DNA of 20,763 nucleotides, from positions 1 through 20,763 of IMG/VR virus record IMGVR_UViG_3300025789_000183; one strand, written 5' to 3'. The notes under the pieces were generated by a model that saw only the letters and a list, made by a program, of their open reading frames with translations, had not been told where the DNA came from and did not search any database. This stretch comes from a virus. The translations under genes were made by a program, and so were the position numbers. Each line of letters opens with the position of its first letter. The first letter of the stretch is position 1. Below are positions 562 through 18,400 of this stretch, piece after piece.

Positions 562-1767
562 ATCCCAAGATTATCACTTTATAAACCGGAGAAAGGGCCG
601 GACTTCCGCTTCATTGATCGCGTGGTCAACGAGCAGTTTCAGGTTGGTGGTACAGATATTTTTATTCACAAATACCTCGGTCCAGTTGCTCCGCAAGATG
701 GTGAATCTACTCCTACAACTCCTAATACCAGTGCAAATCCTATTCCAGAACTAGGCATACAAGATGTCCTGTTCATGGAAAATCGCGATCGCAACTACGA
801 GCCAGATGTATATACAATTCGTGGAATTTATACAATGGCTGATTTAGATTTTAATTTAAGTCAGTTTGGATTGTTTCTACAAAATGATACAGTATTAATG
901 CACTTTCATTTACGCAACTGTGTGGATACGCTGGGGCGTAAAATCATGCCTGGCGATGTGCTAGAATTACCTCACTTAAAAGATGAATATGCTCTAGACA
1001 ACAATTTTGTTGCTCTTAAAAGATTTTATGTTGTGCAGGATGTTACTCGTCCTGCCAATGGTTTTAGTCAAACATGGTATCCTCATTTAGTTCGCGCCAA
1101 GTGTGTACCGTTGATTGACAGTCAAGAATTCAGTCAAATATTTGCACAAGATGCAGGCAATGGTGACGGAACTACACTAAAAGATTTACTCAGTACTTAC
1201 AATCAAAGTATACAAATCAATGATCAGATTATTACACAGGCTGCATTAGACGCACCTGTTAGCGGGTATGATACTAATCAGTTTTTTGTCATACCCATAA
1301 GTTCGAGTACAGGCCTAGTAAGTTATGCACCTACTAGTGATGTCACAGATGATGCCAGTATAGATACCATGGATGCCAGCATGATTCTAAATACTCCTAA
1401 TGGTCAAGTTTATGTAGGATATGCATCAGGTAATACTATACCTAAAAATGGTGCGGCCTTTGGATCAGGCACACAATTTCCTACAGATCCTAGCATAGGT
1501 CAATATTATTTGAGAGTTGATTATCTTCCTAATGTCTTGTACAGATTTGATGGCGGCAAATGGATTATGACTGAACAAAATGTACGCATGACTATGAATC
1601 AGTTTGGTGCACAGGATGTTAGTACTGGAACTTTCTTTGGCTCACAGATACGACAAACACAGAAGACCAGTTTCATCAACAATACTACAACTGCTACTAT
1701 CAATGGAAAACTTGTTGTAGAGAAACAAGCATTGAATACAGCATTAAAACCCAAGGCGGACAACTAA
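562..1767 (+). CDS. gp14-like neck protein / T4-like virion structural protein
   Basis: The frame is open from 538 to the TAA at 1765-1767. The first standard start is GTG at 622, but codons 562-621 encode PRLSLYKPEKGPDFRFIDR, which looks like the family's conserved N-terminus running directly into VNEQFQVGGTDIFIHKYLGP. AGGAG at 550-554 lies 7 nt before an ATC at 562. I therefore place the start at 562 (401 residues), as a non-canonical ATC start or a base change from ATG; the conservative alternative is 622 (381 residues). Recognisable parts are IQDVLFMENRDRNYEPDVY, then QFGLFLQNDT and RKIMPGDVLELPHLKDEY. These resemble the 'FG…de…GDli..P' core of T4 gp14, which joins the neck to the head. 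The protein is longer than T4 gp14 (256 residues), with a C-terminal extension containing YRFDGGKW and a KQALNTALKPKAD tail. It is followed immediately by the gp15-like gene. It could instead be a distinct marine-phage structural family next to gp14. Confidence 0.62.
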   Translation: MPRLSLYKPEKGPDFRFIDRVVNEQFQVGGTDIFIHKYLGPVAPQDGESTPTTPNTSANPIPELGIQDVLFMENRDRNYEPDVYTIRGIYTMADLDFNLSQFGLFLQNDTVLMHFHLRNCVDTLGRKIMPGDVLELPHLKDEYALDNNFVALKRFYVVQDVTRPANGFSQTWYPHLVRAKCVPLIDSQEFSQIFAQDAGNGDGTTLKDLLSTYNQSIQINDQIITQAALDAPVSGYDTNQFFVIPISSSTGLVSYAPTSDVTDDASIDTMDASMILNTPNGQVYVGYASGNTIPKNGAAFGSGTQFPTDPSIGQYYLRVDYLPNVLYRFDGGKWIMTEQNVRMTMNQFGAQDVSTGTFFGSQIRQTQKTSFINNTTTATINGKLVVEKQALNTALKPKADN

Positions 1768-1768
1768 A

Positions 1769-3169
1769 ATGGATCATTTTTATTCGGGGCAAGTACGCCG
1801 ATATCTAACCCAGTACATGAGATTAATGAGTAATTTTTCTTGGAAAGATAGCTCAGGTAAGTTAAGTCAAATACCAGTAATGTATGGTGATCCTAGTCGT
1901 CAGGCCAGTGCATTGTTGAAAAAGAATTCAGAGAATGTAATGCCTACTGCACCATTCATTGCTTGCTATATCAAAGGACTAGACTATGACCAAAGTCGAC
2001 TACAAGATCCTACATTTGTCAGTAAGGTACAAATTCGTGAGCGCGAATTTGATGAAACAACAGGTCAATACTTGAACACTCAAGGACTGGGATATACTGT
2101 AGAGCGTATTATGCCAAGTCCATACAAATTAACATTTGTAGCAGACTTATGGACTACTAATACTGAACAAAAGTTGCAGATATTTGAACAGATTGCGTAT
2201 TTGTTTAATCCTAGTCTAGAACTTCAAACTACTGATAACTTTATAGACTGGACTAGCTTAACTGTATTACAATTAGAAAGTACAAGTTGGACTAGTCGTC
2301 AGATACCCCAAGGTGTTGATCAAAACATTGATATAATGAATATGACATTTACAACACCTATATGGATTACACCTCCTGCTAAAGTTATGAAGATGGGTGT
2401 CATTACTAAAATTATTGCTAATGTTTTTGCTGATCAACAAGGCACTATCATAACTGACTACGATGATCCTAATGCTGTTTATCCTGGATTAGGTAATCTA
2501 GTTGAATCTGTGGTAGTTACACCTGGCAATTTTGAATTAATGGTATTAGATGGTGTGGCCGGTTTGTTGACCAATGAAATAGACACAGCCTCAAGTGATA
2601 CAACGATGCCTGGCAATACAGTATCGTGGCGTAAACTATTAGATTTATATCCTGGTCAATTCCGTGCAAATATCAGTCAGCTGAGATTATCTAAGCCCAA
2701 CGGTAACGAAATTGTTGCTTACATTAGCTTAGATCCGTATGATGAGCGTAGAATGTTGCTGACATTTGATACAGATACTATACCTGCCAACAATGCCCTA
2801 CTGAACCGTCCCTTAGGTACTGTAGATGCAATTATAAATCCTGAGACATTTGCTCCAGGAACACCAGTGACTAATGTTACATATCTAATATTAGAAAATA
2901 TCAATGTTGTATCAGAATATGGTCAACCTGGTTATAGTGGCCCTGTGGCATGGAAAAATGCTGATCAAAGCGACTTTCAAGCATTGGCCAATGACATCAT
3001 ACAGTGGGATGGAGTTAAGTGGAATGTGATATTCAATTCTGCTGATGTGGTTGAAGTTCATTACATAACTAATTCATATACAGGTATACAATACAAGTGG
3101 GACGGACATCAGTGGTCGAAGAGCTTTGAAGGCATCTACCCAGCATTAGGATGGCGTCTTGTGTTATGA
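1769..3169 (+). CDS. gp15-like tail sheath stabiliser/completion protein with long C-terminal extension
   Basis: The start DHFYSGQVRRYLTQYMRLMSN (residues 2-22) matches the opening of T4 gp15 (YFYNSSFRRYATLMGDLFSN). Other matching points follow in order: a PxxYGDPSRQ segment, a hydrophobic central strand (PFIACYIKGLDYD), PSPYKLTFVADLWT, then EQIAYLFNP and FTTPIWITPPAKV (compare gp15 PSPIKMIYELSIFT, EQILPYFQP, NGWMYPP). In T4, gp15 caps the completed sheath and binds the neck. T4 gp15 is 272 residues; this protein has 466. The extra ~200 residues form a beta-rich tail with two 'DG-x-x-W' motifs, QWDGVKW (412-418) and KWDGHQW, ending in a W-R-L-V-L strand. The gene starts 1 nt after the gp14-like stop, so the two are co-transcribed. 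A GGCGGA stretch upstream is the likely ribosome site. It belongs to a divergent gp15 branch, not the typical cyanophage version I remember. Confidence 0.7.
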   Translation: MDHFYSGQVRRYLTQYMRLMSNFSWKDSSGKLSQIPVMYGDPSRQASALLKKNSENVMPTAPFIACYIKGLDYDQSRLQDPTFVSKVQIREREFDETTGQYLNTQGLGYTVERIMPSPYKLTFVADLWTTNTEQKLQIFEQIAYLFNPSLELQTTDNFIDWTSLTVLQLESTSWTSRQIPQGVDQNIDIMNMTFTTPIWITPPAKVMKMGVITKIIANVFADQQGTIITDYDDPNAVYPGLGNLVESVVVTPGNFELMVLDGVAGLLTNEIDTASSDTTMPGNTVSWRKLLDLYPGQFRANISQLRLSKPNGNEIVAYISLDPYDERRMLLTFDTDTIPANNALLNRPLGTVDAIINPETFAPGTPVTNVTYLILENINVVSEYGQPGYSGPVAWKNADQSDFQALANDIIQWDGVKWNVIFNSADVVEVHYITNSYTGIQYKWDGHQWSKSFEGIYPALGWRLVL

Positions 3170-3175
3170 TAAACA

Positions 3176-3625
3176 ATGAACGCTGAAACAACATCAACTC
3201 AACAAATCATTTGCAGTGGAGGCTTATTCCTAGCTCGAGATACTCGCAGATTTTTGTTTCTCTTACGAACACAAGGTAAAACTGCCGGTACTTGGGGGCT
3301 AGTTGGTGGTCGTAAAGAGCCTACGGATGCCACAGCCTTTGAAGCACTGAGTCGTGAGATACAGGAAGAAGTAGGTGCTACGCCTAAGATAAAAAAGATT
3401 ATTCCTCTAGAGCTGTTTACCAGCAATGATCAAAACTTCCAGTACAACACCTATGTACTAATGATCGATCGTGAATTTATTCCTACACTAAATGAGGAAC
3501 ACAGTGGCTATGCTTGGACTGGATTTGATCAATGGCCCAAACCCTTGCACCAGGGTGTAAAGAACAGTTTCAACAATCGTGCTGTTCGTGCTAAATTAGA
3601 ATTACTATTAGACTTAATAGATTAA
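3176..3625 (+). CDS. Nudix hydrolase (phage type)
   Basis: This 149-residue protein has the Nudix fold signature. A strand reading ICSGGLFLARDTRRFLFLLR is followed by GTWGLVGGRKEP (38-49) and the catalytic helix ending REIQEEVG (60-67), with the metal-binding glutamates E61, E64 and E65 in place. Such enzymes cleave nucleoside diphosphates linked to another group; the substrate cannot be read from sequence. The Nudix box is one residue longer than GX5EX7REUXEEXGU between G45 and R60, with Asp51 where Glu is usual. The C-terminal part, LNEEHSGYAW…WPKPLHQGV (105-128), resembles a branch of phage Nudix proteins. The gene starts 6 nt after the gp15-like stop, so it rides on the neck/tail transcript; no clear Shine-Dalgarno is visible. 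Its stop overlaps the convergent small gene's stop in a shared TTAA. Confidence 0.85.
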   Translation: MNAETTSTQQIICSGGLFLARDTRRFLFLLRTQGKTAGTWGLVGGRKEPTDATAFEALSREIQEEVGATPKIKKIIPLELFTSNDQNFQYNTYVLMIDREFIPTLNEEHSGYAWTGFDQWPKPLHQGVKNSFNNRAVRAKLELLLDLID

Positions 3626-3828
3626 GGTAGAGTAGCGTAGAGATCACGCTTCTGTTGATTGGTCAACGGTGTGCCGTTAGAATCATTGATGTCTACACTG
3701 TTAGATACATCACGTTTAAAAATAACATAGTCAGTATTATCTAGTGCAAAAGGAATATAAAGATTGTCTTCAAGCCTTTTAACTATCTCAATGTTGTTTG
3801 TAATTAAATTCTTTACTAATTGATACAT
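3622..3828 (-). CDS. Small hypothetical protein at the end of the fibre operon (68 residues)
   Basis: I do not recognise this protein firmly. The frame is open from an ATG at 3882, but the ATG at 3828-3826 is the better start. It is preceded by GGAG with an 8-nt spacer, lies just beyond the upstream gene's stop at 3831, and avoids a 52-nt overlap. The product begins MYQLVKNLITNN, contains YIPFALDNTDYVIFKRDV (approximately residues 24-41) and ends NQQKRDLYATLP. The 'IPFALDNTDYxxF' element resembles short segments near phage fibre proteins that often read IPxDxxNxDYxxY. No signal peptide or membrane segment is seen. As the last gene of the 7783-to-3622 minus-strand group it may be a fibre-associated or assembly factor; that is context only. 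Confidence 0.55.
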   Translation of the reverse strand: MYQLVKNLITNNIEIVKRLEDNLYIPFALDNTDYVIFKRDVSNSVDINDSNGTPLTNQQKRDLYATLP

Positions 3829-3830
3829 TT

Positions 3831-5000
3831 TTATAACTCCGATGATGCCGTCCATTGACCATAAATTTCTGCGTTTGTCCAAGCACCTATACCAGAAGCT
3901 GTATTTTGATAAAATCCGTTTACTCCAACTCCTGTTGGACTAGGAGTAAGAGTAAGTCCGCCTCCTGAATAAGTACCAGACCATCCGGTACCGCCACTGG
4001 TATTCCAAAAAGAAAGAGACGGTGTACCTCTTTTAGTAACTTTAAAATTCACTGTAGATCCCAAAGCTCCTCCCCCTTGGGTTGTACCTCGTTGTATTGT
4101 CATACCAACATCTGTAGCTGTACCAGGTGGAGTTGTAACATCGTATGACATTTCATAATATCGCTGACACATCTGCAGTTCTCTAGTATAGTCTCTATAG
4201 TCAAAAGTTGTAGCCGACGCACCTGCTTCTAATTGCACGCCACTGATATACATTGTAGCACCATTGGTTGCTAATAAATTAGTTGAACCAGCAGAACCTA
4301 TAGCAAAACTTTTTGTAGTCCATGCATTAGCAGTATCTTGGTAAGTTGATCCTGCGGCTAATGTAATGCCAAATTCTATACCAATTCCGGTGGTATTATT
4401 CCACGATCCTGTTGTTGGTCCCAGAATTGTCCGTGTAATTTGTACCCATGTATTTGCCGCTGATATAGTAAATGTAAATGGATAACTATAGGTATTGCCA
4501 CTGTTAGATACATACCCGCTGAATGTTCCTGTCAGTGAACAGTTTACCCAGAATGATACCGATACCGATTGTGCAGAACTAGTTCCCCATGCTAGGTCAG
4601 CAACATTATAACCTTCTATACGTTGGCTGAAAGTTGCATAGACTCCCGAAGATACTGTTGTTGCAGATCCCGATGTGATCAATGCACTATTGGTATAACC
4701 TGTTGGAACACTTGCCGTGCTCTGTTCTAGATAAAAATATCCCAAAGCATTAGCCCAATAACCCCAGCGATCTAGTGTATTATATTTTAAAGTTGAACTT
4801 GCTACCTGATTACTCACAGGTGAGCTACCTCTTTGTGCAAATGTCATTGCACCGTTGATCAATCTATTCTTAAAGGATGGGGGTGCTGAGACTCCACCAG
4901 CAAGTCTAGCCCAATAGTTAGTTGCACTGGTATAGGAATAAGTAATTCCATTGCTCAGTGTTGCAATTTGACCGTTAGTTGGGGAAGTTGGGAAGCTCAT
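3831..5000 (-). CDS. Phage tail-fibre protein with jelly-roll-like carbohydrate-binding domain
   Basis: This 389-residue protein has a short N-terminal attachment-type segment (FPTSPTNGQ…YWARLAGG, residues 3-36). A module typical of many marine-phage fibres follows: NRLINGAMTFAQRG (45-58), LDRWGYW (76-82), QRIEGYNVADLAWGT (126-140), VSFWV (148-152), GVQLEAG…TTFDYRDY (254-271) and ELQMCQRYYE (274-283). The order 'NGxxxxxQRG … DRW … SFWV … GVQLEAG … CQRYY' is characteristic of a beta-sandwich domain thought to bind host surface sugars. The C-terminal ~100 residues are Gly/Thr-rich beta structure. It is preceded by a 60-nt gap containing candidate late-promoter motifs and has no evident Shine-Dalgarno. 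It would be virion-associated and located at the tail tip or fibre. Confidence 0.75.
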   Translation of the reverse strand: MSFPTSPTNGQIATLSNGITYSYTSATNYWARLAGGVSAPPSFKNRLINGAMTFAQRGSSPVSNQVASSTLKYNTLDRWGYWANALGYFYLEQSTASVPTGYTNSALITSGSATTVSSGVYATFSQRIEGYNVADLAWGTSSAQSVSVSFWVNCSLTGTFSGYVSNSGNTYSYPFTFTISAANTWVQITRTILGPTTGSWNNTTGIGIEFGITLAAGSTYQDTANAWTTKSFAIGSAGSTNLLATNGATMYISGVQLEAGASATTFDYRDYTRELQMCQRYYEMSYDVTTPPGTATDVGMTIQRGTTQGGGALGSTVNFKVTKRGTPSLSFWNTSGGTGWSGTYSGGGLTLTPSPTGVGVNGFYQNTASGIGAWTNAEIYGQWTASSEL

Positions 5001-5060
5001 AGTACTTGTATTTAACTAATTTTTATTTATGTATGACTGAATTAATAAATGTTTGGATAA
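5001..5060 (-). promoter_or_regulatory. Intergenic region with candidate late promoter motifs for the 3831-5000 fibre gene
   Basis: On the minus strand CATAAATA (5031-5024) differs at one base from TATAAATA and lies 23 nt before the ATG. A second motif, GTTAAATA (5016-5009), ends 8 nt before the ATG. No Shine-Dalgarno and no terminator-like hairpin with a T-tract is evident in this 60-nt gap. Confidence 0.4.
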
Positions 5061-6539
5061 TCAAATTGTAAAAGATCCGCTGGCATTAAATTGATAAACA
5101 TGAAGATGTGCGGATGTATTGTGAGTATATGTAGGACTTCCTGTAACGGAGGTAGCTGGTGAATAAGAGTCGCTCCAACTTACAATGACTACACCTTTGC
5201 CGCCGTTTCCGCCTGCAAATTTTGTACATGGACTACTTTGGTAAGCACCTCCGCCTCCGCCTCCGCCGCCGGTGTTAGCACAGCCATTGGTTCCTGACGT
5301 TGCATTTGTTCCACTAACCCCACTTCCAAGTTTTGATCCACCGTAGCCGCCACCACCAGAGCCACCTGGTGCAGAATAGCCAGTGGCGGCATAAATGCCA
5401 CCACCGCCACCACCGCCACCCGCATAATACACTGCAGATCCAGTTACACTTGACTGTAAACCAACTCCTCCAGCTCCTCCACCGCCTGAACAATATGTCG
5501 AAGACGGATTACCTCCAACTCCTCCAGCACCTCCGCCACCACCGCCATTCTGCGGAACTCCGGTTATTCCTACTCCACCTGCATAACCTTGCCCACTAAC
5601 AGGAGTCCCACCACTGCTATTACCGTAAGTAGATCCTCCACCACTGCCCCCAGCAAGTCCAGATGCTCCGTTAGTACAATAATATGAACCACCTTTACCA
5701 CCACCACAGGTAGATATGCTTAAAGTACCTATGCTACTTGAGCAACCTTTGGTAGTAGCAGAAGCGGCACCTGATCCTCCTCCTCCTACTGTCACCGCAT
5801 AAACCGTACAAGCAGTTACACCTGCAGTTCCAGTTTTCATTCCTCCAGCACCTCCTCCTCCAGCACCCGGTGATTGATTACCCCAACCGCCTCCACCGCC
5901 ACCTGCTACAACTAGATAACTAATTGAACTAGGTTTAGATACGCTAGTTGTAACACTGTTACTAGATGTACTAGCAGAGCTGGTACCAACACTGTTGGTA
6001 GCAGTTACTGTAAACGTATATGTAGTACCATTGGCTAACCCAGATACTGTAATAGTTCCGGATCCAGCTTGACTTAATGTTCCGGTAATCCCGCCAGGGC
6101 TACTTGTTGCTGTATAGCTTGTTATAGTTGCACCACCATTACTAGCAGGTGCTGTAAATGGCACACTGGCTGTTGTAACAGTGACTGTCACTGTTCCAAT
6201 CGTTGGTGCACCTGGGACAACTGCTACTATAGTTGTTGTTGTATTTGATTTTGCACCTGTACTACCAACTACATTTGTTGCAGTAACTATTGCATATATA
6301 GTATTGCCCACATCGGCTGAACCTAATGTATAAGTAGTTGCTGTGGCTCCACTGATTACAGTACTTGGGCTTCTATACCACTGATATGTATAGCTAATTG
6401 TAGATCGAGAAGTCCAAGTTCCGTTGGTCGTTGTCAACGTAGAGCCAAATTGAGTTGTTCCAGTAACAGCAGGAGCTATTGTATTGATAGGTGGGGAATC
6501 ATAAGAACCTCCAACAAAGGCATTAAGAATGCCACTCAT
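5061..6539 (-). CDS. Ig/FnIII/glycine-rich receptor-binding adhesin
   Basis: This 492-residue protein has three parts. Residues ~17-106 form a bacterial Ig-like domain (PAVTGTTQFGSTL…GTWTS…YTYQWYRS…YTLGSADVGNTIYAIVTATN). Residues ~107-200 form a fibronectin type III-like domain (PGAPTIGTV…ITSYTATSSPGG…ISGL-type turn…TYTFTVTATNSVG). Residues ~208-455 are a glycine-rich domain beginning YLVVAGGGGGGWG with repeated GGGGGAGG runs. A short C-terminal strand segment ends QFNASGSFTI. Glycine-rich tips of this kind are known from the phage S16 gp38 adhesin, where polyglycine II helices pack into a sandwich and bind the receptor. Seven cysteines are scattered through the Gly-rich part. The ATG overlaps the upstream gene's TGA as ATGA (6536-6539), so translation is probably coupled. 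It is probably a distal host-recognition protein. Confidence 0.75.
   Translation of the reverse strand: MSGILNAFVGGSYDSPPINTIAPAVTGTTQFGSTLTTTNGTWTSRSTISYTYQWYRSPSTVISGATATTYTLGSADVGNTIYAIVTATNVVGSTGAKSNTTTTIVAVVPGAPTIGTVTVTVTTASVPFTAPASNGGATITSYTATSSPGGITGTLSQAGSGTITVSGLANGTTYTFTVTATNSVGTSSASTSSNSVTTSVSKPSSISYLVVAGGGGGGWGNQSPGAGGGGAGGMKTGTAGVTACTVYAVTVGGGGSGAASATTKGCSSSIGTLSISTCGGGKGGSYYCTNGASGLAGGSGGGSTYGNSSGGTPVSGQGYAGGVGITGVPQNGGGGGGAGGVGGNPSSTYCSGGGGAGGVGLQSSVTGSAVYYAGGGGGGGGIYAATGYSAPGGSGGGGYGGSKLGSGVSGTNATSGTNGCANTGGGGGGGGAYQSSPCTKFAGGNGGKGVVIVSWSDSYSPATSVTGSPTYTHNTSAHLHVYQFNASGSFTI
5180..5916 (-). repeat. Glycine-rich repeat region within the adhesin gene
   Basis: The minus strand encodes runs of Gly interspersed with Ala, Ser and Tyr from YLVVAGGGGGG down to FAGGNGGKG. 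On the plus strand this appears as degenerate CCACCGCCACC-type tracts. Edges are approximate. It is low-complexity coding sequence, not an independent element. Confidence 0.7.
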
Positions 6540-7783
6540 GTCACATTAGTTCCTGTTAGTAACCATTGAGTTGTTGCTATTTTAATACAATTGGCAACAC
6601 CGTACTGTGCCAAAGTTCTAGATCCTGATGCACCACCCTGCGCCCACGTCAATGTGTCAGAGTTGATGGCAATTGTCACAGCCTGTGTTGACATATTAAT
6701 AAACTGAATCACAGTACCTAAAGCGTAAGGTACTGATGCGTTTGCCGCAATAGTAAATGTTCTAGCATTAGCATCACTTGCAGGGTGAAAAATACACCAC
6801 CCTGCATCCGAAGCAATAGTTGTGTATGCCGCACTTTGGCTATTTTGAGGAATACCAAGATTGGCATAAGTCCCAATTGTAGCGGTAGTTAATATTACTG
6901 CACCACCAATAGTTCCAACCGTTGTTACCGATAGTGTGTTTGCACTTATAGTACTAGTTGCTGTGATACTAGTTGCTGTGATACTGGTTGCTGTGATACT
7001 ATTACCAAAGATAGCATTAAATGTACCCGTTCCACCTACATTTAAATTACCACCAATACCTGCTCCACCTGCAACAGTAAGCGCACCGGTTGTGGTATTA
7101 GAGCTAACTGTGGTATTAATTATTGTAAATATATCTGGAGAAGTAACCTGTGTCTGTGTAACTGTAGTGTACTGTATAGTTAATTGTTGAGCAGTAATTG
7201 TACCGCCAATATATAGATCGCCACCGATACCTACACCACCTGCTACAACTAATGCACCAGATGCAGTACCTGTAGTGGCAGTATTATTAGTAATTGCAAA
7301 TGCACTGGTAGTTCCTGAACTGGCAGCGCCGACAGTAGCACCGGCTACCTGTAAATTGCCGCCTGCGACACTCAGCGGCACCCCACCAATATCAATGGTA
7401 CTGGAAGTAACATACAAGGTACGGAATCTATATGAAGGACTACCTAGATCATAACTAGCAGTGGCACTGGGAATAATACTCTGTGTAATAGTACCACCAC
7501 TGAATGCATTGGTGATTGTAGGGCCCGTGATATCCAACCAAGCAAAAGTCGTTCCATCTGTGGTATATCTCGCAATGGTATCTGTCAGTGTATTATACCA
7601 AAGATCACCAACTCCGGGATTGGCAGGTGGAGTACTAGAACTGGTTGTGCGTGTTCCGCCTCCCGAAATCTGCCCAGCGGCAACAATACCTCCGGCTATA
7701 TTCAGTGCACCAGATCCTGTATTTGAAATAGTTACGGTACCTGTGGAACTTTCTAAGAATGATAATTGGCCTGCTTGAGTCAT
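6536..7783 (-). CDS. Modular phage fibre protein with GALxVxGG repeats and conserved C-terminal domain
   Basis: This 415-residue protein starts MTQAGQLSFLESSTGTV. A 'PPANPGVGDLWYNTLTD…YTTDGTTFAWL' segment (about 53-83) and a 'YDLGSPSYRFRTLYV' element (about 111-125) follow; both are common in phage fibres. Two clear copies of the GALxVAGGxGIGGxLxxGG module follow, with the QLTIQYTTVTQTQVTSPDIF linker between them, then three ITATS repeats and VILTTATIGTYANLG. The last ~110 residues (IPQNSQSAAYTTIASDAGW … TIAINSDTLTWAQGG … WLLTGTNVT) are a C-terminal domain I recognise from many phage fibre proteins. The repeats and linker are shared with the giant fibre gene. A stop codon two codons upstream leaves ATG 7783 as the only Met start. 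It has no Shine-Dalgarno, but TATAAATA ends 6 nt before it. It is the first gene of the minus-strand fibre group ending at 3622. Confidence 0.72.
   Translation of the reverse strand: MTQAGQLSFLESSTGTVTISNTGSGALNIAGGIVAAGQISGGGTRTTSSSTPPANPGVGDLWYNTLTDTIARYTTDGTTFAWLDITGPTITNAFSGGTITQSIIPSATASYDLGSPSYRFRTLYVTSSTIDIGGVPLSVAGGNLQVAGATVGAASSGTTSAFAITNNTATTGTASGALVVAGGVGIGGDLYIGGTITAQQLTIQYTTVTQTQVTSPDIFTIINTTVSSNTTTGALTVAGGAGIGGNLNVGGTGTFNAIFGNSITATSITATSITATSTISANTLSVTTVGTIGGAVILTTATIGTYANLGIPQNSQSAAYTTIASDAGWCIFHPASDANARTFTIAANASVPYALGTVIQFINMSTQAVTIAINSDTLTWAQGGASGSRTLAQYGVANCIKIATTQWLLTGTNVT
6953..6997 (-). repeat. Three tandem 15-bp units encoding ITATS
   Basis: The plus-strand unit ACTAGTTGCTGTGAT occurs at 6953-6967 and 6968-6982, with a one-base variant at 6983-6997. 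The period is a multiple of three, so the fibre frame is kept. Confidence 0.9.
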
Positions 7784-7864
7784 ATGTTATATTTATACTC
7801 AAAGAAAGCTCTTGACATTCTATATGCAGATAAGTAGTATATACATATACAACGGAGAAACCCC
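7784..7864. promoter_or_regulatory. Divergent promoter region between fibre gene and 2OG-oxygenase cassette
   Basis: The 81-nt gap holds signals for both directions. On the minus strand an exact T4 late motif TATAAATA spans 7797-7790, six nt before the fibre ATG. On the plus strand a perfect TTGACA (7812-7817) is followed after 17 nt by TAGTAT (7835-7840), a 4/6 match to the sigma-70 -10 box. GGAG with a 7-nt spacer precedes the oxygenase ATG. The layout suggests early host-type transcription of the enzyme cassette and late transcription of the fibre gene. GATAAGTA at 7829-7836 is a weaker alternative late-type box for the plus strand. Confidence 0.5.
7790..7797 (-). promoter_or_regulatory. 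Exact T4-type late promoter motif TATAAATA
   Basis: The minus strand reads TATAAATA from 7797 to 7790, the consensus late promoter box of T4-like phages. It is only 6 nt from the fibre start codon, so a transcript starting at the usual distance would have almost no 5' leader. Confidence 0.55.
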
Positions 7865-8581
7865 ATGGCAATTGTCATCGAAACCCCAGAGGATCAGATC
7901 ACAGAAATAACCACCACAGAATCAGTAGTCAAGCCCAATGATGTACAGTTGCAAGTAGAATACTTGTTTGCCAGTTCAGTGTGGAGGACCAGTGCTCCAC
8001 AATTCCTAGAAGATGTACAGGCTGTGGCAAAAACACAATTCAGCAAACGTAAAAAAGAACACCCAGAGATCTTAAAAACAGTTTATCCCACGGTGATGAC
8101 TGACAATATCCACACAGATCCCCGTTGTGCCGAGTTTGTTAACTATGTTCAGCAAGCGGCATGGAATGTCCTAAACAATCAGGGTTACAATATGGATGTA
8201 TTTGACATGATATTCTATGATTGTTTTGGACAAGAACATCACAAGTACAGCGGACATGATACTCATACACATCCTGGAGGTCAAATCACAGGATTTTATT
8301 TCTTAGAGACTCCAGAAAACTGCTGCCGTGTAGTATTCCAAGATCCACGTCAGGGCAAAAATCATGGTGCTATCGGTGAACGCAATATGAGCCAAGCTAC
8401 ATTGGCCAGTTATGAAATCAATTACCAACCCCAGCCTGGTGATTTTTTCTTTACCAATTCTTGGTTGCCACACAGTTTCACACGCAATGCCAATGCCAAG
8501 CCAATGCGTTTTATTCATTTTACATTAGGTGTACAATATAAACCTCAGCAACCTATAGCTCCTGCCGCCAATATAGTATGA
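7865..8581 (+). CDS. Putative 2OG-Fe(II) oxygenase (phage type, PF13759-like)
   Basis: This 238-residue protein has the pattern of the 2OG-FeII_Oxy_5 group common in marine myophages. It has an N-terminal LFASSVWRTSAPQF element, then WNVLNNQGY (100-108). HDTHTHPGGQITGFYFLE (131-148) supplies candidate metal-binding histidines (H134/H136), followed by VVFQDPR. PGDFFFTNSWLPHSF (191-205) carries the distal histidine H203, and the MRFIHFTL strand has R215, a candidate 2-oxoglutarate anchor. Such enzymes use Fe(II), oxygen and 2-oxoglutarate to hydroxylate a substrate; the substrate is not evident here. It starts at ATG 7865 with GGAG 7 nt upstream. Its stop overlaps the next gene's start as ATGA (8578-8581). 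With that partner it forms a plus-strand cassette inside a minus-strand fibre block, behind a sigma-70-like promoter. Confidence 0.8.
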   Translation: MAIVIETPEDQITEITTTESVVKPNDVQLQVEYLFASSVWRTSAPQFLEDVQAVAKTQFSKRKKEHPEILKTVYPTVMTDNIHTDPRCAEFVNYVQQAAWNVLNNQGYNMDVFDMIFYDCFGQEHHKYSGHDTHTHPGGQITGFYFLETPENCCRVVFQDPRQGKNHGAIGERNMSQATLASYEINYQPQPGDFFFTNSWLPHSFTRNANAKPMRFIHFTLGVQYKPQQPIAPAANIV

Positions 8582-8835
8582 ATCGTTATCATATTCGTTT
8601 CAACAAATCTCGAGGTCAACCAGGGCGTGGCACCAAAAATCACGTTTGGCGAGTATTTGAGAACGGTGAGGAATACCTTTTTAAACACTTTAAGGTATCT
8701 GTACCTTGTTTTGATGAAACCACAGGTGATGGTCTAGGCAACGATGATTGGAACTTCTGCTGTGAAGGCTATCTGAGTATAGACAAGGCCACATCCACAG
8801 CTATTATCACTGCCGAGCCTCCCGCTAAAGATTAA
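8578..8835 (+). CDS. Conserved small phage protein of unknown function (85 residues)
   Basis: The protein begins MNRYHIRFNKSRGQPGRGTK and continues WRVFENGEEYLFKHFKV, ending with WNFCCEGYLSIDKATSTAIIT. I recall small proteins with an 'RYHIRFN…WRVFENGxE' pattern in marine T4-like phages, with no known function. It is basic at the N-terminus and beta-rich, with two adjacent cysteines (CC) and another upstream. There is no membrane segment. Its ATG overlaps the oxygenase stop, implying translational coupling and perhaps a shared function. Its TAA (8833-8835) overlaps the convergent gene's stop (8834-8832) in one TTAA. Confidence 0.68.
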   Translation: MNRYHIRFNKSRGQPGRGTKNHVWRVFENGEEYLFKHFKVSVPCFDETTGDGLGNDDWNFCCEGYLSIDKATSTAIITAEPPAKD

Positions 8836-9212
8836 ATTGCCGGCGGAATTTCTACTTCTTTCCAGCTTGTAGTAGGTTCATCCCAAATGTAACTTTTGCC
8901 ATCAGTGGGCCTTGCTACTGGTGCAGTCCATGTCCAAGTTGCACTATCTATGGTCCAGCTAGGAAAAGGCTGTGGTGGGTAAAACACATCATTCTCGGAA
9001 TCATAAACATATCCAATACCAGCATAATTACCCCTCAAGGCTACACCTCCGTCGGGTTCACCGTCTTGTCCATAATGTACATTGCCGCGGGTGTTGTATG
9101 AAGTTTGACGCCACTGGCTAGGATCTCCCCATAGTCCTATATCCAATGTTTCTTGTTCTATTGCAATAACTCTGGTTACAATTCCATTTTCTACTTTGGC
9201 AAAATATGACAT
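8832..9212 (-). CDS. Conserved marine-phage protein of unknown function (126 residues)
   Basis: The protein starts MSYFAKVENGIVTRVIAIEQ and contains QWRQTSYNTRGNVHYG (33-48), GGVALRGNYAGIGYVYD (55-71), DVFYPPQPFPSW (74-85) and SYIWDEPTTSW (106-116). This set of motifs (AKVENGIVxxVI, QTSYNTRGxVH, ALRGNYAGIGYxYD, DxFYxPxPxPSW) is very common beside tail and fibre genes in marine myophages, but I know of no assigned function. It is probably a virion component. AAGGA lies about 10 nt before the ATG, and the gene starts 15 nt after the upstream 1071-residue structural gene, so the two are probably co-transcribed. Confidence 0.72.
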   Translation of the reverse strand: MSYFAKVENGIVTRVIAIEQETLDIGLWGDPSQWRQTSYNTRGNVHYGQDGEPDGGVALRGNYAGIGYVYDSENDVFYPPQPFPSWTIDSATWTWTAPVARPTDGKSYIWDEPTTSWKEVEIPPAI

Positions 9213-9227
9213 CAGTAATATTTCCTT

Positions 9228-12200
9228 TTATGCTTGCGGTTCGCCCCAACGTAGGGTTAAATTAGCGTTAATTGGCTGACCAGTGGTTGTATATACATTA
9301 ATGAATAATACATCTGGTCCGTTTGGATAACAATTTCTACCACCAATTGGAGTATTAGTTAATTCTTTCAACAATGATAAATCTAGTACATCTCGTTCAG
9401 CAGGGCTACTAACGAATGAGAATACAGTTTCTCCCGGTTGTGCAAATCCTGTTCTACTGAATGTTATGCTAGTAGAGCCAGCAATGCTATTCACGGTATA
9501 ATTACTGATCCTAACCTGATTAGTAACAGGATTGATGTAGGTTACAACAGTTCCGCCAGTTATAGGACTATTATAATTTCCCGGAATATATACAGCATCA
9601 CCTGCTTGAATACCAGTAACATTGGCCAGTGTTATAATATTAGTACCGGTAGCAGTTACTCCACTTGTAGCAATAACTGTGGTTGCGGCATTGTCAAATG
9701 TAATGCTTTGTCCTTGTGCAATTTGAGCAAAACTTGGCTGGCCGGTTTGAAGTCCTGCACTGGTTAAACTTTGCCATGTAATTCTACCAGAATAAGGATC
9801 ACTGGGATAATTTTGTGGGTTTAATATACCTTGAACAACCATAGCACAGTTGGTATTTGTTGTTCCGCCAGCAGTAACTTCAATTGCTTGCAATCTCATC
9901 TGGGCACGATTCAATAAATCTCGATCACCTAAATCTCCTGCAATGGCATTACTCACACTTGGTGCTAATCGAATAGCAAATGCAGTTGTTGGTACTGTAC
10001 TAACGTTAATGTTTGTAGAAACATAATTAAAAATGTATCCGCGATCATCGTCAAATCCGCCGTCAGCCAAATAAGCTGATCCCCAGTGAGTTAATTGTGG
10101 TGATGCTGTTTGCCCTACTAAAATTACTCCGGTCCCTGTACTATGAATTGATGCGTTGGTTCCAGTAAATGTTCTAGTCTGTCCAGCAACAAACTGGCTG
10201 TAACTTGTTCCACGTGTTAGTCCAGTTAATGAATTTGTACTAGTAGTTATACCTGTATACTGTATAACTTCTTGGTCTACATATACATAACCACCACTCT
10301 TTGGAAAATATGTAACATCTCCTATATTCATGTAAGTATCAGTAACTCCCATAGAATTATACAAATAACTACGTGCACCCTCATTGATAACCTGATAACG
10401 AACAGGCATATTACCAGTTCTTTGGAAAGCTTCAATATTAACGTTGGAATTTTTTAAACGATGTATAGTAATAAAATTACCATCTGGACCTCGCAACATC
10501 CAATCAATAAATCCAGCACCATACCAAGTCCATTGCAATCCGATCATTTGCATTTTATTAACATTAAGATTATAACCACTAGGATTAAAGACTCCATTAC
10601 TACCATCACACCGATCTATGTTCCATTGCGATTGCGGCACTATTGTGTCAACAACTTTGACTATTTTAATACCAGACTGATTTATATAACCACGAAACTC
10701 TGGATTGACCGAAATTTGCGTATCATTTATAACGTTAGTTACAACATGAGTCATGCCTTTAATAACTACACGATCACCTGCTATTAATTGACCTGTAAAT
10801 CGTGTATTAATACCATTTACAATATGACTACCTGTTGTAACAGACACAAGACCTGCAATATTAGGAGTTGCGGTTCGTTGACCAATAGCTATTTGTATTC
10901 CATCATACTGCCAAAACATCCCATTTTGATCATCAAATGTTCCTGCACGTACAGTTGAACCATACCAATTTCTTACAGATAATAATGCTGGGGTACCTAA
11001 AATAGCATTAGTTGATGTAGTTGTTAACGATCCTGTAGAAAGGAAAAGCACAGTACGTTCATCAGTTACTGTGCTAACAGTATAAACACCGTTATATCCA
11101 GCATTACCGCAGTTACTTAATAAAACAGTTGCACCAACTTGACACCCATGATCGTTGTCATCAGTAACAACAGTGATTATACTACCAGTTGTAAGTCCAT
11201 TGGCAGTAACTGATCGAATATTATAGTTAGGAGCAAACAATGCACCGGTATTATAATTAATTGCTTTACCAGATTGATATCGAAGATTTTTCTTACTTTG
11301 GCGTACAGCATCAGTTCCCGGACTAGGTCCGTTTGTACCTAACTGTACACCACCGTCAAAGGGTCGATGTATATAATAACTATCAGATCTCGGTGCTATA
11401 TATCCCAAAGGCGTTCCCGATATTGATCCAACGTTTCTAGCAGAATAGCTGAATGTTGAAGAACTAAGAACTGATGTAACAAAAAATGGTCCCTGGCATA
11501 GATTATGACCATTGCTGCCATTGTAGCTAGAAATAATAGCAATAAAAGTATTTCCCGGAGCAAAGCCGTGTGGATCAGTTGATGTAACTGTGATTGTTCC
11601 TGTGGTAGAAGAACTAGATCCTGTTACTACAAATGACACATTGCTTAATGTAGAACCAGTATAAAATCCGCCTTTACGTACAACAGTCGATGCCTGACTA
11701 ACAACTGTACCACTAGTAACACCGACCAGGCCTTTGGCATAAAAATTAAATGATGTTGCACTGTTTACTGAATCAACAATAAAAGATCCTTGTGCACGGT
11801 CATAACTAGCAACTGTTTGTAATAATGCATTACAGGTCAATGCTGTACCAGTTGATAGATTATGCGGGTAATTTGTATTCACAGTCATTAAACTTGATAC
11901 ACCCGCTTGTCCCCCGCTGGCATAACTAGCATCAGTGGTAATATTATTAACAGATAAGTCTGTTCCTGGTATTTCATAGATTCCAGGGTATCCTCTCATT
12001 TGACTCAATGTCTGCCACTTAGTAGGTTGCATACCATACTCAAAGTCAGCATCAATCATTGATTGAGGTGAGGCTACACGAGTACGTTCAAAGGCATCTG
12101 TTCCCATTGCCCATGGACGAGTAATAACAGCACCTTGCGGATTTTCTGTAAATATTTGCAGGATATCAGTACTCAACATACCAGCGGTACTAGCACCTAG

Positions 12201-12443
12201 AGTAATAGTAGTTATACCATCAGACGATTGTAGAGCTTGGGGAAAATTAGTGGTGTTGGCACGGCTCAAACTCATCGTAGTTCCGACAAAGTTTAAATCG
12301 GCAAAATTGTAAATTATTTGATTTCTAGTAACATTGGTAATAATCAATAACTGACTAAGATCATACCGTCCGGGTATTTGAACCGTTCCTACTCCGGCAG
12401 CTCCGGGAGTAAAAATATACGTTCTTTGCAGTTGTTTTGCCAT
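9228..12443 (-). CDS. Large virion structural protein of marine T4-like phages
   Basis: This 1071-residue protein carries several signatures I associate with virion structural proteins of cyanophages and pelagimyophages. RTRVASPQSMIDADFEYGMQ lies at 120-139, continuing PTKWQTL. The KMQMIGLQWTWYGAGFIDWM block and LRGPDGNFITIHRLKNSNVN with RTGNMPVRYQVINE lie around 620-690. LLKELTNTPIGGRN…PNGPDVLFINVY and a terminal LTLRWGEPQA close the protein. Between them are Thr/Ser/Gly-rich beta modules, such as the 'STDPHGFAPGNTF' and 'DDNDHGCQVGATVLL' hairpins, each reading like 'HGF..G….I….YNG…V..V'. No enzymatic motif is seen. The exact position in the particle (baseplate periphery or fibre attachment) is not determinable. 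AAGGA precedes the ATG by 11 nt, and 24 nt separate it from the giant fibre gene's stop, so the two are probably in one operon. Confidence 0.72.
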   Translation of the reverse strand: MAKQLQRTYIFTPGAAGVGTVQIPGRYDLSQLLIITNVTRNQIIYNFADLNFVGTTMSLSRANTTNFPQALQSSDGITTITLGASTAGMLSTDILQIFTENPQGAVITRPWAMGTDAFERTRVASPQSMIDADFEYGMQPTKWQTLSQMRGYPGIYEIPGTDLSVNNITTDASYASGGQAGVSSLMTVNTNYPHNLSTGTALTCNALLQTVASYDRAQGSFIVDSVNSATSFNFYAKGLVGVTSGTVVSQASTVVRKGGFYTGSTLSNVSFVVTGSSSSTTGTITVTSTDPHGFAPGNTFIAIISSYNGSNGHNLCQGPFFVTSVLSSSTFSYSARNVGSISGTPLGYIAPRSDSYYIHRPFDGGVQLGTNGPSPGTDAVRQSKKNLRYQSGKAINYNTGALFAPNYNIRSVTANGLTTGSIITVVTDDNDHGCQVGATVLLSNCGNAGYNGVYTVSTVTDERTVLFLSTGSLTTTSTNAILGTPALLSVRNWYGSTVRAGTFDDQNGMFWQYDGIQIAIGQRTATPNIAGLVSVTTGSHIVNGINTRFTGQLIAGDRVVIKGMTHVVTNVINDTQISVNPEFRGYINQSGIKIVKVVDTIVPQSQWNIDRCDGSNGVFNPSGYNLNVNKMQMIGLQWTWYGAGFIDWMLRGPDGNFITIHRLKNSNVNIEAFQRTGNMPVRYQVINEGARSYLYNSMGVTDTYMNIGDVTYFPKSGGYVYVDQEVIQYTGITTSTNSLTGLTRGTSYSQFVAGQTRTFTGTNASIHSTGTGVILVGQTASPQLTHWGSAYLADGGFDDDRGYIFNYVSTNINVSTVPTTAFAIRLAPSVSNAIAGDLGDRDLLNRAQMRLQAIEVTAGGTTNTNCAMVVQGILNPQNYPSDPYSGRITWQSLTSAGLQTGQPSFAQIAQGQSITFDNAATTVIATSGVTATGTNIITLANVTGIQAGDAVYIPGNYNSPITGGTVVTYINPVTNQVRISNYTVNSIAGSTSITFSRTGFAQPGETVFSFVSSPAERDVLDLSLLKELTNTPIGGRNCYPNGPDVLFINVYTTTGQPINANLTLRWGEPQA

Positions 12444-12467
12444 TTTATTCTAAATCCTTGTTATTCG
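12444..12467 (-). promoter_or_regulatory. Ribosome binding site between giant fibre and 1071-residue structural gene
   Basis: AAGGA on the minus strand lies about 11 nt before the ATG at 12443. No late-promoter box or terminator hairpin is visible in this 24-nt gap, which favours read-through from the giant fibre gene. Confidence 0.4.
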
Positions 12468-15400
12468 TTACATACCGAGTGCTATTGCCATAGCCGCCGC
12501 GGCTGCTGTTTGTGATATTGCTTGAGCAAAGTTTTGACTAGCTACAATACGAATTACATCTCCAGCGTTACGTGCTGTATTTAGTACCACATAAGGACTG
12601 GTGCTAGCATTATAGTCACCGCTGTTTAACAAAACTCCGTTAGCAAACACTTGTAATTGATTGGCCACAAATCCGCCAGCTACAGTACAAGTGCTTTGTC
12701 CCTGTAACATAGTAAATTCTTGGATAGTTGTGGGCAGTATTTGAGCACCGTTGGTATAGATATTAGATGCATATAAATTACCTGCTATTCCAACTCCACC
12801 TGCAACTGTAAGGGCACCAGAATATGTTCCAATACTCTGCGTTGTATTAGTAATGGTAAAGATATCTGGTGTAACAACAGTAGTTTGAGTAATTGTTGTA
12901 TATAGAATTGTCAACTGCTGTGCAGTAATTCCGCCAGCAACATATAAATTACCTGCAATACCAACACCACCTGCAACTGTCAGTGCACCAGTTGTAGTAC
13001 TTGTGCTCGAAGTTGTGTTAGAAATAGCAAATGTCGCAGTAGTGTTTAGGTTGTAAGCTGCCGCATAAACTGTACCCGTGGCATAGATATTATAAACACC
13101 ACTAATGCTACCACCATTACCTGTGATATTAACTGTGGCAAATGATCCAGTATTGGCTGCATAGATAGATCCATTAACACCAATGCCGCCTGCAACAATC
13201 AATGCACCAGTATAAGTTGATGTACTGATGTTAGTACCAAGTATAGTAGCTGTGGTAAGTACCGTTAATGTGTTATTAGTTGCTGCACCACCAATGTATA
13301 TATTACCACCAATACCAACACCACCAGTAACCTGCAATGCACCTGTTGTTGTACCTGTGCTCTGTGTTATATTACTAATCAGTACAGTTGCTGTTGTTGC
13401 AGTTAATGCCGCCGCTACGTAGGTATTAACAGTAGCAGTTGTAACCAATGCCGCACCAGCAAGTATAATAGATCCACCAACTGTTAAAATATTAGTAACA
13501 GTTAGGCTACCACCAAAAGTTCCACTGTTGGCTACATTTAAGTTACCACCGATACCAACACCACCAGTTACAATAACAGCACCAGTTAAAGAAGATGTTG
13601 AAGTAGCCGAACTTGTAGCCAATAGTACCGGAGCAGTGATTGTACCAGTTGAGAATATATTGTTAACGCCAGTGATACTACCACCAGTACCAACAATTAC
13701 TACGGTACCAAATGATCCAGTATTAGCCGCATATAATGATCCACCAATACCAACACCACCAGCAACAACCAATGCTCCAGTATAAGTTGATGTACTAACG
13801 TTAGTACCTAGTATACTTGCTGTAGTTAGAACTGTTAGGGTATTAAATGATCCAAAGTTGCCAACATACAAGTTACCGCCGATACCAACACCGCCCGTGG
13901 TCTGGAAAGCACCTGTGTTTGTACTGGTACTTTGTGTTGTATTGTTTATGACAAATGTTGCTGTAGTCGCAGTTAATGCTGTGGCAATATATGATCCAAC
14001 AGTAGCTGTGGTAATCAGTGCCGCACCAGCAAGTATAATTGATCCGCCAACGGTTAAGACATTGTTAACGGTTACACTACCACCAAATGTTGATGTAGAT
14101 CCGCCAACATTTAAGTTACCACCAATGCCTACACCACCTGTTACAATAACAGCACCTGTCAGTGTCGAAGTTGATGTAGCAGAACTTGTGGCAAGCAATA
14201 CCGGTGCTGTAACAGTACCAGTAGCAAAAATATTATTAACACCAGTAATACTACCGCCAGTTCCAACAACTACTACAGTACCAAAAGATCCAGTATTAGC
14301 CGCATATAACGAGCCACCTATACCAACACCACCCGCGACAATCAATGCACCGGTATAAGTTGATGTACTGACATTAGTACCAAGTATGCTGGCTGTGGTT
14401 AGAACTGTTAGAGTATTATTAGTCTCTGCACCACCAATGTATATATTACCACCAATACCAACACCACCAGTAACTTGGAAAGCACCTGTATTTGTACTGG
14501 TACTTTGCGTTGTATTGTTAATAACAAAGGTCGATGTAGTTGCAGTCAATGCCGCACTGATTACAGTACCAACAGTAGCAGTTGTAATTAGAGCCGCACC
14601 ACCGACTATCAATTGTCCATTAATAGTTAATGTATTATTAATAGTTACACTGCCACTAAATGTTGATGTAGATCCGCCAACATTCAAATTACCACCAATG
14701 CCTACACCACCAGTTACAATTACTGCACCTGTAGTAGTTGATGTTGAAGTAGCTGAACTTGTAGCAAGCAATACAGGTGCAGTAACAGTACCTGTGGCAA
14801 AAATATTATTAACACCGGTAATACTACCACCATAACCAACAATACTAACTTGTGCAAAAGATCCAGTATTGGCAACATATAAATTACCACCAATACCAAC
14901 ACCACCTGCAACAACCAATGCACCAGTATAAGTCGATGTACTGACATTAGTACCAAGTATGCTGGCTGTGGTTAGAACTGTTAGTGTATTAAATGATCCA
15001 AAGTTACCAACATATAAATTACCACCAATACCAACACCACCAGTAACCTGTAGTGCACCTGAGTTAGTACCGGTGCTTTGTGTAATATTACTGATAACCA
15101 ATGTTGATGTAGTTGCAGTCAATGCCGAAGAAATTACAGTACCGACAGTAGCCGTAGTAATCAATGCCGCACCACCAACTATTAACTGTCCATTAATAGT
15201 TAATGTATTATTAATAGTTACGCTACCACTAAATGTTGATGTAGATCCGCCAACATTCAAATTACCACCAATGCCTACACCACCAGTTACAATTACTGCA
15301 CCTGTAGTAGTTGATGTTGAAGTAGCTGAACTGCTGGCTGTTAGAATAGAAGTAGCCACTGTACCTGTAGCAAAAACACTGTTTACGCCAGTAATACTAC

Positions 15401-18400
15401 CACCAGTACCTACAACAATAACAGTACCAAAGGATCCAGTATTGGCTGCATATAACGAACCACCAATACCTACACCACCTGCGACAATCAATGCACCAGT
15501 ATATGTCGATGTGCTGACATTGGTACTTAATATACTTGCTGTGGTTAGAACTGTTAGAGTATTATTAGTCTCTGCACCATAGACATAGAGATTTTGTCCA
15601 ATTCCAACACCACCTGCAACAACCAATGCACCTGTTACTGTGCTGGTACTTGGGGTTGTATTACTGATAATGAAAGTTGATGTAGTACCAGTAGTTACAG
15701 GGTTGATATAACTTTGAATTGTAGCAGATGTAATGAATGCCTGCCCTTGGACTGAAATAGTTCCAACTACAGTTAAACTACCGCCAATGGTTGCACTGCT
15801 ACCAACATTCAATGCACCGCCAATTCCAACACCACCAGGTACAGTTATAGCACCTGTAGTAGTCGACGTTGAAGTAACTGTGCCAGCTAAATTAATAACT
15901 CCAGCCTGTATAGTACCTGTGGCAAATAAACTATTAACACCAGCAATGTTACCGTTAGCACCTACAATATTAACAGTACTGAATGATCCTGTACCTACAG
16001 CACTAATAACACCACCGCTGTATATATTACCACCAACACCAAGACCGCCGGCTACAACCAACGCACCATTTGTAGAAGTTGTACTGGTAGATGTATTGGT
16101 AATATTGATTGCATTGGTAGTTGTAGATCCCCTATTGGTAATTGTCTGTAGTGTGCTTGAATTAGCAATGTACACACCATTGGTACTAGTGAATACCGAA
16201 GTATCAGTACCAGCAAGAATACCAGCGGCTACATATGGATTAACCAAACTAAAGATAGTTGCAGTTGAAAGTATAGATCCACCTGCGACAAATAAACTAC
16301 CACCAACAAATAAATTGCCTCCAATTCCTAGGCCACCTGCAACAGTAACCGCACCTGTTGTAGTTGAAGTTGAATTGGCTAGGCTAGTAACAGTAACTGT
16401 ACTAGCATAGATAGTACCCGATGAGAAAATTGCAGTAACATTGCTGATAGCACCGCCGCCACCTGTAATGGTAAGAGTATTAATTGCTAACGTACCAGCA
16501 AGATTTAAGTTTCCACCAATACCGACACCACCTGCTACTATTAGTGCACCTGTAGTAGTTGATGTTGAACTTGTTGTGTTAGTAATGTTGAATATACTAG
16601 CAGTACCTGTACTACTACCGCCACCGGCTGCATAGTTACCAATTGTAGCAGTGGTAATAATCTGTGCACCTGCAATGTAACTGGTATTTGCAATATAAAC
16701 ATTTCCACCAATACCTACACCACCAGTAACAACCAATGCACCGGTAATTGTCGATGTTGATGTTGCAGTTCCAGTGACTGATATTGCATTGGCAATTATT
16801 GTACCTGTGGCATTTATACTACCAACACCAGTAATATTGCTACCGCCACTACCTGTAATAGATATGGCAGCAAATGTACCAGTACCACCAACGTATAAAT
16901 TACTACCAATACCAACACCACCTGCAACAGTCAATGCACCTGTGGTAGTTGAAGTTGAAGTTGCTGTTCCACTGAAATACCCAGTTCCTGCAACTGTCAC
17001 TAATCCTGTAGCTGGATTAATAGTAAAACTACTTGTGGTATATTCAGCTTGATAATTTGCTGTATTATTGTTAGCATTGACAAATACAGGATAGTAAGTT
17101 CCAGCGGCAAATTGTGCCTGCGTTTGAACATAAATTGTATTTGTGGCTGTTCCTGCACTTACACCGGCTAATGGTTGCCAAGTTGCAGTAGAACCATTAG
17201 ATGTTAAAACATAATTATTCAATCCAATTGGAATGAATGCAGTAGTGCCGGTGCCGCTTTGAATTGGTATACTACCTGCCGCACCGCCCGCAATGTTAGT
17301 AGTTGTGTTACTGCTTGCACCTAATAAATTACCACCGCTATAGATATTTCCACTAACATTTAAATTGCCACCAACGCCAACACCGCCGGTAATTATTAAT
17401 GCCCCAGTGTTTGTAGAAGTAGACTGTGTTGAACTTGTAACAAATATTGTATTGGCTGTGATTGTACCGGTAGCAGAAATATTAGTAACACCTGTGATAT
17501 TACTGCTGCCAGATCCTGTAATAACAATAGCATTGAATGTACCAGTTCCGCCAACATTAATATTGCCGCCGATACCAACTCCGCCAGCAACAACTAATGC
17601 TCCCGATGCAGTGTCAATACTAGGAGTAGTATTAGTAATTGTGAATATGTCTGGTGATGTAACTAGTGTTTGAGTAACTGTTGTATAGCTAACTGTTAAT
17701 GATGCCGCAGTAATACTGCCGCCAACGTACAAATTACCACCAATTCCAACTCCACCAGCAACTGTCAATGCACCTGTAGTAGTTGAAGTTGATTGTGAAG
17801 TATTAGTAAAATTAACAGTTCCACCAGTTATTCCACTGAATGTACCAGTATTTCCAGCAAGTCCCTGTAATCCTTGAACGCCTTGAGTACCTTGATTGCC
17901 TTGGAGACCTTGAGTACCTTGAATAGATACACCTTGAACACCTTGAATTCCCTGACTACCGATAAGGCCCTGAATGCCTTGTAGGCCTTGAACGCCCTGA
18001 ACACCTTGCGTACCAGTACCACCGACAAATCCAGCTTGTCCCTGTAGTCCCTGCAATCCTTGAACGCCTTGACTGCCAGTTTGCCCTTGTAGGCCCTGAA
18101 TACCTTGTGTACCAGTACTACCTGTAAATCCACTTATACCCTGAACACCTTGAACTCCCTGGCTACCAGTTTGGCCTTGGGTTCCTTGAATACCATTACC
18201 ACCTTGTAGGCCTTGCGTACCTTGACTACCAGTTTGCCCCTGTAGTCCTTGCGTACCTTGACTACCAGTTTGCCCCTGTAGTCCTTGCGTACCTTGTGTT
18301 CCTTGACTACCAGATCCCTGTGTTCCTTGTACACCCTGTGTCCCTGTACCTCCATAGGCACCTACAGTAGCGGTAGTTAAGATAACTGCTCCGCCAATAT

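Follow-up and report, generated by a model that had tools for sequence, protein, structure and literature searches.

A phage oxygenase of the PF13759 type and the small beta-protein encoded with it: a candidate enzyme–substrate or enzyme–adaptor pair

The ribosomal protein uL16 carries a Gly/Lys-rich loop around Arg81. As described in the passages of PMC4295552 that deal with the enzyme, the oxygenase YcfD (ROX) modifies this residue, which lies on an extended loop of the small protein. A second case is the P4H of Pseudomonas putida, which is bound to EF-Tu according to the title of its structure entry (4iw3). Oxygenases of the 2OG type are common in marine cyanophages, and what they act on is a matter of proposals: those parts of PMC3037559 that touch on these enzymes suggest either a part in repairing DNA or a role via 2-oxoglutarate and the nitrogen status, and the same proposals recur in the corresponding part of a later paper (PMC4164917). 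Among open-licence PMC papers, no description of an oxygenase paired with a small partner protein was found. For one branch of these phage enzymes a likely protein partner can now be named.

The pair is encoded in a virus record of 20,763 bases (IMGVR_UViG_3300025789_000183), referred to below as the window, in which a block of fibre-like genes occurs together with a gene for a tail-sheath stabiliser of the T4 type (PF16724). The comparison with YcfD and uL16 concerns how the two systems may work; YcfD belongs to another oxygenase subclass and no homology is claimed. The P. putida P4H has the same fold class as the window oxygenase (Z 15.4), but the identity is only 8% and its partner is EF-Tu, not the product of a small overlapping gene. 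Both systems may be regarded as analogues in working, not in membership.

The two genes and their products

The oxygenase gene (7865-8581, plus strand, 238 aa) ends in an ATGA overlap (8578-8581) in which its stop codon meets the start codon of the partner gene (8578-8835, plus strand, 85 aa). The fibre genes on either side are encoded on the minus strand, and the placement read in the initial annotation is confirmed. The divergent neighbour encodes a 415-aa fibre-like protein (6536-7783, minus strand; ORF list and PHROG search) and the convergent one a 126-aa fibre-block protein matching phrog_7759 (8832-9212, minus strand). Elsewhere in the window, a 2739-aa fibre-like ORF (12468-20687, minus strand) contains long GLQG-type collagen-like runs, and a NUDIX hydrolase gene (PF00293; 3176-3625, plus strand) separates the tail-sheath stabiliser gene from the fibre block.

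The oxygenase matches PF13759 (2OG-FeII_Oxy_5) with 46.1 bits against a gathering cut-off of 27, and phrog_81 with 1.4e-21, while its score for the NCBIfam family TIGR02466 (48.9 bits) falls below the cut-off of 62.5. Its AlphaFold2 model (pLDDT 90) is predicted to adopt the double-stranded beta-helix fold of the superfamily. The nearest solved folds are 3bvc (VIA Z 20.6 over 188 residues at 2.5 A) and 2rg4 (Z 20.2), two uncharacterised bacterial proteins of no known function with 17-18% identity to the window enzyme. They are followed by many prolyl hydroxylases (VIA Z 14.8-16.5), and protein hydroxylases are among the nearest folds: 4iw3, an algal P4H with bound peptide (3gze, Z 16.4) and the viral collagen prolyl hydroxylase vCPH (5c5t, Z 15.1).

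Instead of the textbook superfamily motif HxD/E...H, the enzyme has HxH...H. The residues H134-x-H136...H203 are present in 195 of 195 partnered enzymes, as are H218 and Q123, and the same arrangement is found in 8/8 aligned unpartnered relatives and in 3bvc and 2rg4, whose HxH and distal His align with those of the window oxygenase. It is thus a family-wide variant, and the filing of the enzyme in the superfamily rests on PF13759. With HxH in place of HxD/E, dependence on 2OG is not assured and is taken from the family. The protein is probably a P4H-like enzyme built on a double-stranded beta-helix, with putative 2OG/Fe(II) dependence. Oxygenases of the Pelagibacter phages HTVC033P and HTVC023P and of the Synechococcus phage S-SKS1 also belong to phrog_81/PF13759 and share the HxH...H motif at 24-30% identity to the window enzyme, but unlike the latter they have no partner gene near them in the three records examined. 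Those of the two pelagiphages adjoin a second 2OG oxygenase and a gene annotated as ‘ferrochelatase’.

For the 85-aa partner no family was found in Pfam, PHROGs or NCBIfam, and PADLOC returned none for either protein at E values up to 1. The model of the partner is very confident (pLDDT 95.4) and all-beta. Against the PDB, Foldseek gave nothing at E <= 0.001 and VIA-align no Z above 2.7, which is not proof of a new fold. A profile match to human diamine acetyltransferase 1 (partner residues 5-37, E 0.026) was dropped, as it is isolated and at odds with the partner in both fold and length. Several uncharacterised phage proteins are found among the predicted viral structures that resemble the partner model. 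In addition, a partner-like fold appears to form part of a 231-aa protein of Ralstonia phage phiRSL1 named adenosine 5'-phosphosulfate kinase (E 6e-4, TMq 0.65), which suggests a partner-like domain fused to an enzyme.

Partner genes are present in more than 570 IMG/VR stretches among the matches listed, and in one of 50,697 GenBank phage records (MW202545). In the genome_contigs scan of 84,980 species genomes the partner was found in two loci alone: a 3.5-kb MAG contig with the oxygenase-partner pair, possibly phage (L121), and a Gammaproteobacteria MAG with a form of the partner that has a shorter loop (L122). Among 369 genomes of the class Gammaproteobacteria, G001 included, it was found in G001 alone.

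Linkage to the oxygenase and the two partner classes

Scans of IMG/VR, driven by partner and by oxygenase queries, were pooled with the window, the one phage record and the loci from genomes. With some places included more than once, they yielded 428 partner ORFs, 299 of them distinct by the DNA around the partner (about 190 nt). Each scan returned its best 80 loci at most, so that all linkage counts given here describe close to middling relatives and are no census. Two classes of partner differ in how many residues separate RFN from WR: 14 (18 in some few genes) in the long class, to which the window partner belongs, and 9 (once 10) in the short class.

Among the matches listed, the oxygenase lies upstream on the same strand in all 206 distinct long-loop partner genes, with a gap of 60 nt or less in 198. 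The genes share a 4-nt overlap in 187 pairs (156 ATGA, 23 TTGA and 8 GTGA). As 138 of the 206 came from partner queries, and all 138 have the oxygenase, its presence was not a condition of selection. The gap exceeds 60 nt in eight pairs, in which the linkage is retained; in the examples read, the intervening genes encode a second 2OG oxygenase (PF13640), a QueC-like protein or an unassigned protein. In one such locus (L057:4981-5999), oxygenase and partner are separated by a 148-aa ORF of no assigned family and by a QueC-like gene that scores just below the cut-off. In the reverse direction, oxygenase queries found the partner at 78 of 81 distinct oxygenase genes among the matches listed. Two of the three exceptions reach the contig edge 9 and 502 nt later, and the third (L165) is truly without a partner within 3.9 kb. 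A functional tie between the two genes, proposed earlier from their overlap, is thus borne out in the long-loop class, and oxygenase and partner very probably form an obligate functional unit.

Both genes are under purifying selection, with a median dN/dS of about 0.09 in 206 close pairs of loci. Covariation and identity were assessed in 195 of the 206 pairs, 11 being left out for short sequences. Median whole-protein identity is 0.625 for the partner and 0.476 for the oxygenase. The distances of the two proteins correlate with a Mantel r of 0.55 (shuffles at most 0.12), which is the expectation for co-inherited genes. Mean-field DCA (195 pairs, effective 96) gave a covariation of 6.0, barely higher than the 5.0-5.6 of shuffled pairings.

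The long loop (partner residues 10-23, KSRGQPGRGTKNHV, encoded at 8605-8646, plus strand) connects strands 1 and 2 and is five residues longer than in the short class. Its consensus is K-S/T-R-G-x-x-G-R-G-S/T-x-D/E-H. Four loop residues, G13, R17, G18 and H22, do not vary across the 195 pairs, and neither do R7, N9, W24, R25, F27, E32, K36, N59 and C62 in the rest of the partner. The loop is also the most conserved part: its median pairwise identity is 0.79, against 0.62 for partner residues 24-78 and 0.58 for the catalytic region of the oxygenase. In a tree built without the loop, with few columns and many open forks, a single branch parts the two classes (SH-aLRT 94). Since loop and oxygenase linkage changed only once on this tree, common descent alone could account for their correlation, which is suggestive but not proof. 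As it is confined to the oxygenase-linked class, the loop stands out as a strong candidate target for binding or modification by the enzyme.

The short-loop genes lack the longer loop with its G13, R17, G18 and H22, but they are of the same family and have the core motif R7, N9, W, R, F, N, C in common with the window partner. This oxygenase is absent upstream of all 93 distinct short-loop genes among the matches listed, 84 of which are preceded by 1500 nt or more of sequence. According to the initial annotation, a small gene often found without the oxygenase would refute its reading of the cassette; such genes exist as the short-loop class, never within the long-loop class of the window. Two short-class loci (L301, L313) contain a distant oxygenase of the family downstream, in a non-adjacent position. 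Directly ahead of 59 of the 93 short-loop genes, among the matches listed, lies an APS-kinase-like gene (PF01583 at 9e-6 in the example scanned), with a 4-nt overlap in 45 of the 59, and the C-terminal half of its product reads as nucleotidyltransferase-like. Other upstream ORFs overlapped by short-loop partners are nuclease-like, GIY-YIG-like, sulfotransferase-like or other oxygenase-like, several of these labels being readings of the sequence. Most partner genes begin with ATGA and can thereby supply a stop to the upstream frame, so the overlap alone says little in the short class.

A few further features of the partner loci were noted. The kinase-like protein of the short-loop loci gives weak matches to defence genes, which look like P-loop matches. 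Sulfotransferase-like genes and cytidylyltransferase/MannoseP_isomer fusion genes occur nearby in the short-loop group L205-L351 (for example L279:688-1826). In the Gammaproteobacteria MAG (L122:6790-8219), the short-loop partner ATGA-overlaps an FAD oxidoreductase gene that resembles L-2-hydroxyglutarate oxidase below the cut-off, and a RodZ-like gene adjoins. A long-loop partner domain is fused to a Cys-rich domain of the CxxCxxCC type (L416:3001-3648), and a short-loop one to a further unassigned domain (L287:3338-3910).

Placement and promoter of the cassette

Of the proposed moron-type insertion, the facultative presence is supported by loci that contain a relative of the adjacent 126-aa gene. 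Neither gene of the pair is present in 75 of 80 such loci, or in 28 of the 32 with full flanks. Two of the five loci that have the cassette are near-copies of the window; among the five it is placed in three ways (convergent, downstream and upstream). In MW202545, the pair follows primase-like and ParB-like genes, away from fibres. Fibre-like genes are found in 115 of 140 long-class loci, and the pair is best described as a facultative cassette, most often beside fibre genes.

Upstream of the oxygenase, the 81-nt gap holds a sigma-70-like promoter motif on the plus strand (7812-7840) composed of TTGACA (7812-7817) and TAGTAT (7835-7840) with a 17-nt spacer. It matches the consensus at 10 of 12 positions and lies 53 nt before the start codon; a Shine-Dalgarno-like GGAGAA follows at 7854-7859. 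An exact late-type box, TATAAATA, which we take to be the T4 late consensus, precedes the divergent fibre gene on the minus strand (7790-7797), and a one-mismatch version, TATACATA, lies in the same gap at 7840-7847; 752 of 2000 shuffles have one too. A promoter score of 10/12 was reached in 106 of 2000 dinucleotide shuffles of the gap, and bases 1-20000 of the window hold 48 such sites, fewer than the 59.5 expected from shuffles. Viewed in the window alone, the promoter is therefore weakly to modestly supported.

The relatives make it credible. For this comparison 140 of 144 long-class loci were used, in which the start of the oxygenase gene is complete and preceded by 100 nt, with a greedy gene caller and single-linkage clusters. 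Sites matching at least 10/12 within 100 nt occur in 26 of the 140 loci (5.1 expected), at least 11/12 in 14 (0.55 expected) and perfectly in 5 (0.025 expected), and 16 of the 26 are positioned 51-56 nt from the start codon. In 92 of the loci the oxygenase lies 40 nt or less behind a same-strand gene, which in 61 of them is a small fibre-associated gene; it stands apart in 47, and one further locus has no upstream gene. Of the 47 isolated loci, 20 have a site of at least 10/12, where 2.7 are expected; of the 92 tight ones 5 do, against an expectation of 2.2. A promoter of its own, as initially annotated, thus recurs, but mainly where the cassette appears to stand alone, as in the window, with no clear excess in the tight loci. 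The early expression supposed in the initial annotation is putative. Its view that the cassette is set apart from late genes has against it the majority of loci, where the pair closely follows another gene of the same strand.

Substrate, accessory subunit or passenger

What the partner does for the oxygenase can be pictured along the lines of uL16. The partner would be a dedicated protein ligand whose 14-residue loop reaches the active site of the oxygenase, where an invariant side chain of the loop, most likely Arg17 or His22, would be hydroxylated; the rest of the protein would then do its own job in modified form. We tentatively favour this substrate reading, while giving it somewhat less than an even chance; the binding, the hydroxylation, which residue it targets and what the modified protein does are all points that we infer. 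Invariant Arg, Gly and His, in a loop whose conservation exceeds that of the beta-core, argue for its entry into a conserved active site. The same core is also re-used beside other enzymes, and this points instead to an accessory domain, a modular beta-domain that would tether different phage modifying enzymes to one shared target, such as a protein of the virion or of the host, with the loop as the docking element specific for the oxygenase. This is a serious if less probable possibility, to which the APS-kinase/nucleotidyltransferase-like gene ahead of 59/93 short-loop genes (45/59 overlapping), the FAD oxidoreductase gene that the partner overlaps in a bacterial MAG, and the nuclease-like and sulfotransferase-like genes of single loci all point. 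It is also consistent with the two partners fused to further domains, one long-loop and one short-loop, with the fibre-like genes in 115/140 loci and with the partner-like fold within the phiRSL1 ‘APS kinase’ (TMq 0.65). Given this last match and the coupling of the short-loop class to other enzymes, an accessory subunit fits as well as a substrate. However, a docking surface would be expected to drift across oxygenases of about 48% identity, yet four loop residues are invariant; moreover, no common target is known, and the phiRSL1 match comes from structure comparison, not from its sequence.

The partner could also be a compact, independent small gene whose ATGA start gives a stop to any upstream gene and which was co-inherited by descent, with no interaction. 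Short-loop partners indeed overlap many unrelated upstream ORFs, including some read from their sequence as GIY-YIG-like, the loop changed once on the tree and covariation is weak. Nevertheless, mere hitchhiking seems improbable, as the linkage holds in 206/206 cases over deep divergence (median oxygenase identity 0.48) and is kept in the eight more distant ones, and the overlap is retained with a TTG or GTG start codon in 31/206. The oxygenase might alternatively act on neighbouring fibre proteins, for example on collagen-like repeats, the partner being a passenger of the fibre block or a chaperone. Besides the frequent fibre-like genes (115/140) and the presence of vCPH among the fold matches (5c5t, Z 15.1), runs of at least 8 G-x-y triplets occur in 66 of 278 long-class loci versus 4 of 150 short-class ones, overlapping loci being counted and the fibre context differing between the classes. 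However, 212 of the 278 loci have no such run, the pair occurs away from fibres too, as in MW202545, and neither the loop nor the overlap is explained, which makes a fibre target very unlikely.

For the favoured substrate reading, a few invariant, mutable residues turn the question into an experiment of co-expression and mass spectrometry. A broader and more doubtful conjecture is that of a phage platform for post-translational modification, in which the small beta-domain of unrecorded fold would be the common target or adaptor of different modifying enzymes: with its loop extension it would serve the oxygenase, in its plain version the APS-kinase/nucleotidyltransferase-like protein, and in single loci other enzymes.

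Relatives of the kinase-like protein with 36% identity are encoded by the cultured Stenotrophomonas phages DLP_6 and Bhz60, in which no partner gene is annotated. In DLP_6 the gene has an Fe(II)-dependent oxygenase and a phosphatase as neighbours, whereas that of Bhz60 lies beside a NADAR-domain gene.
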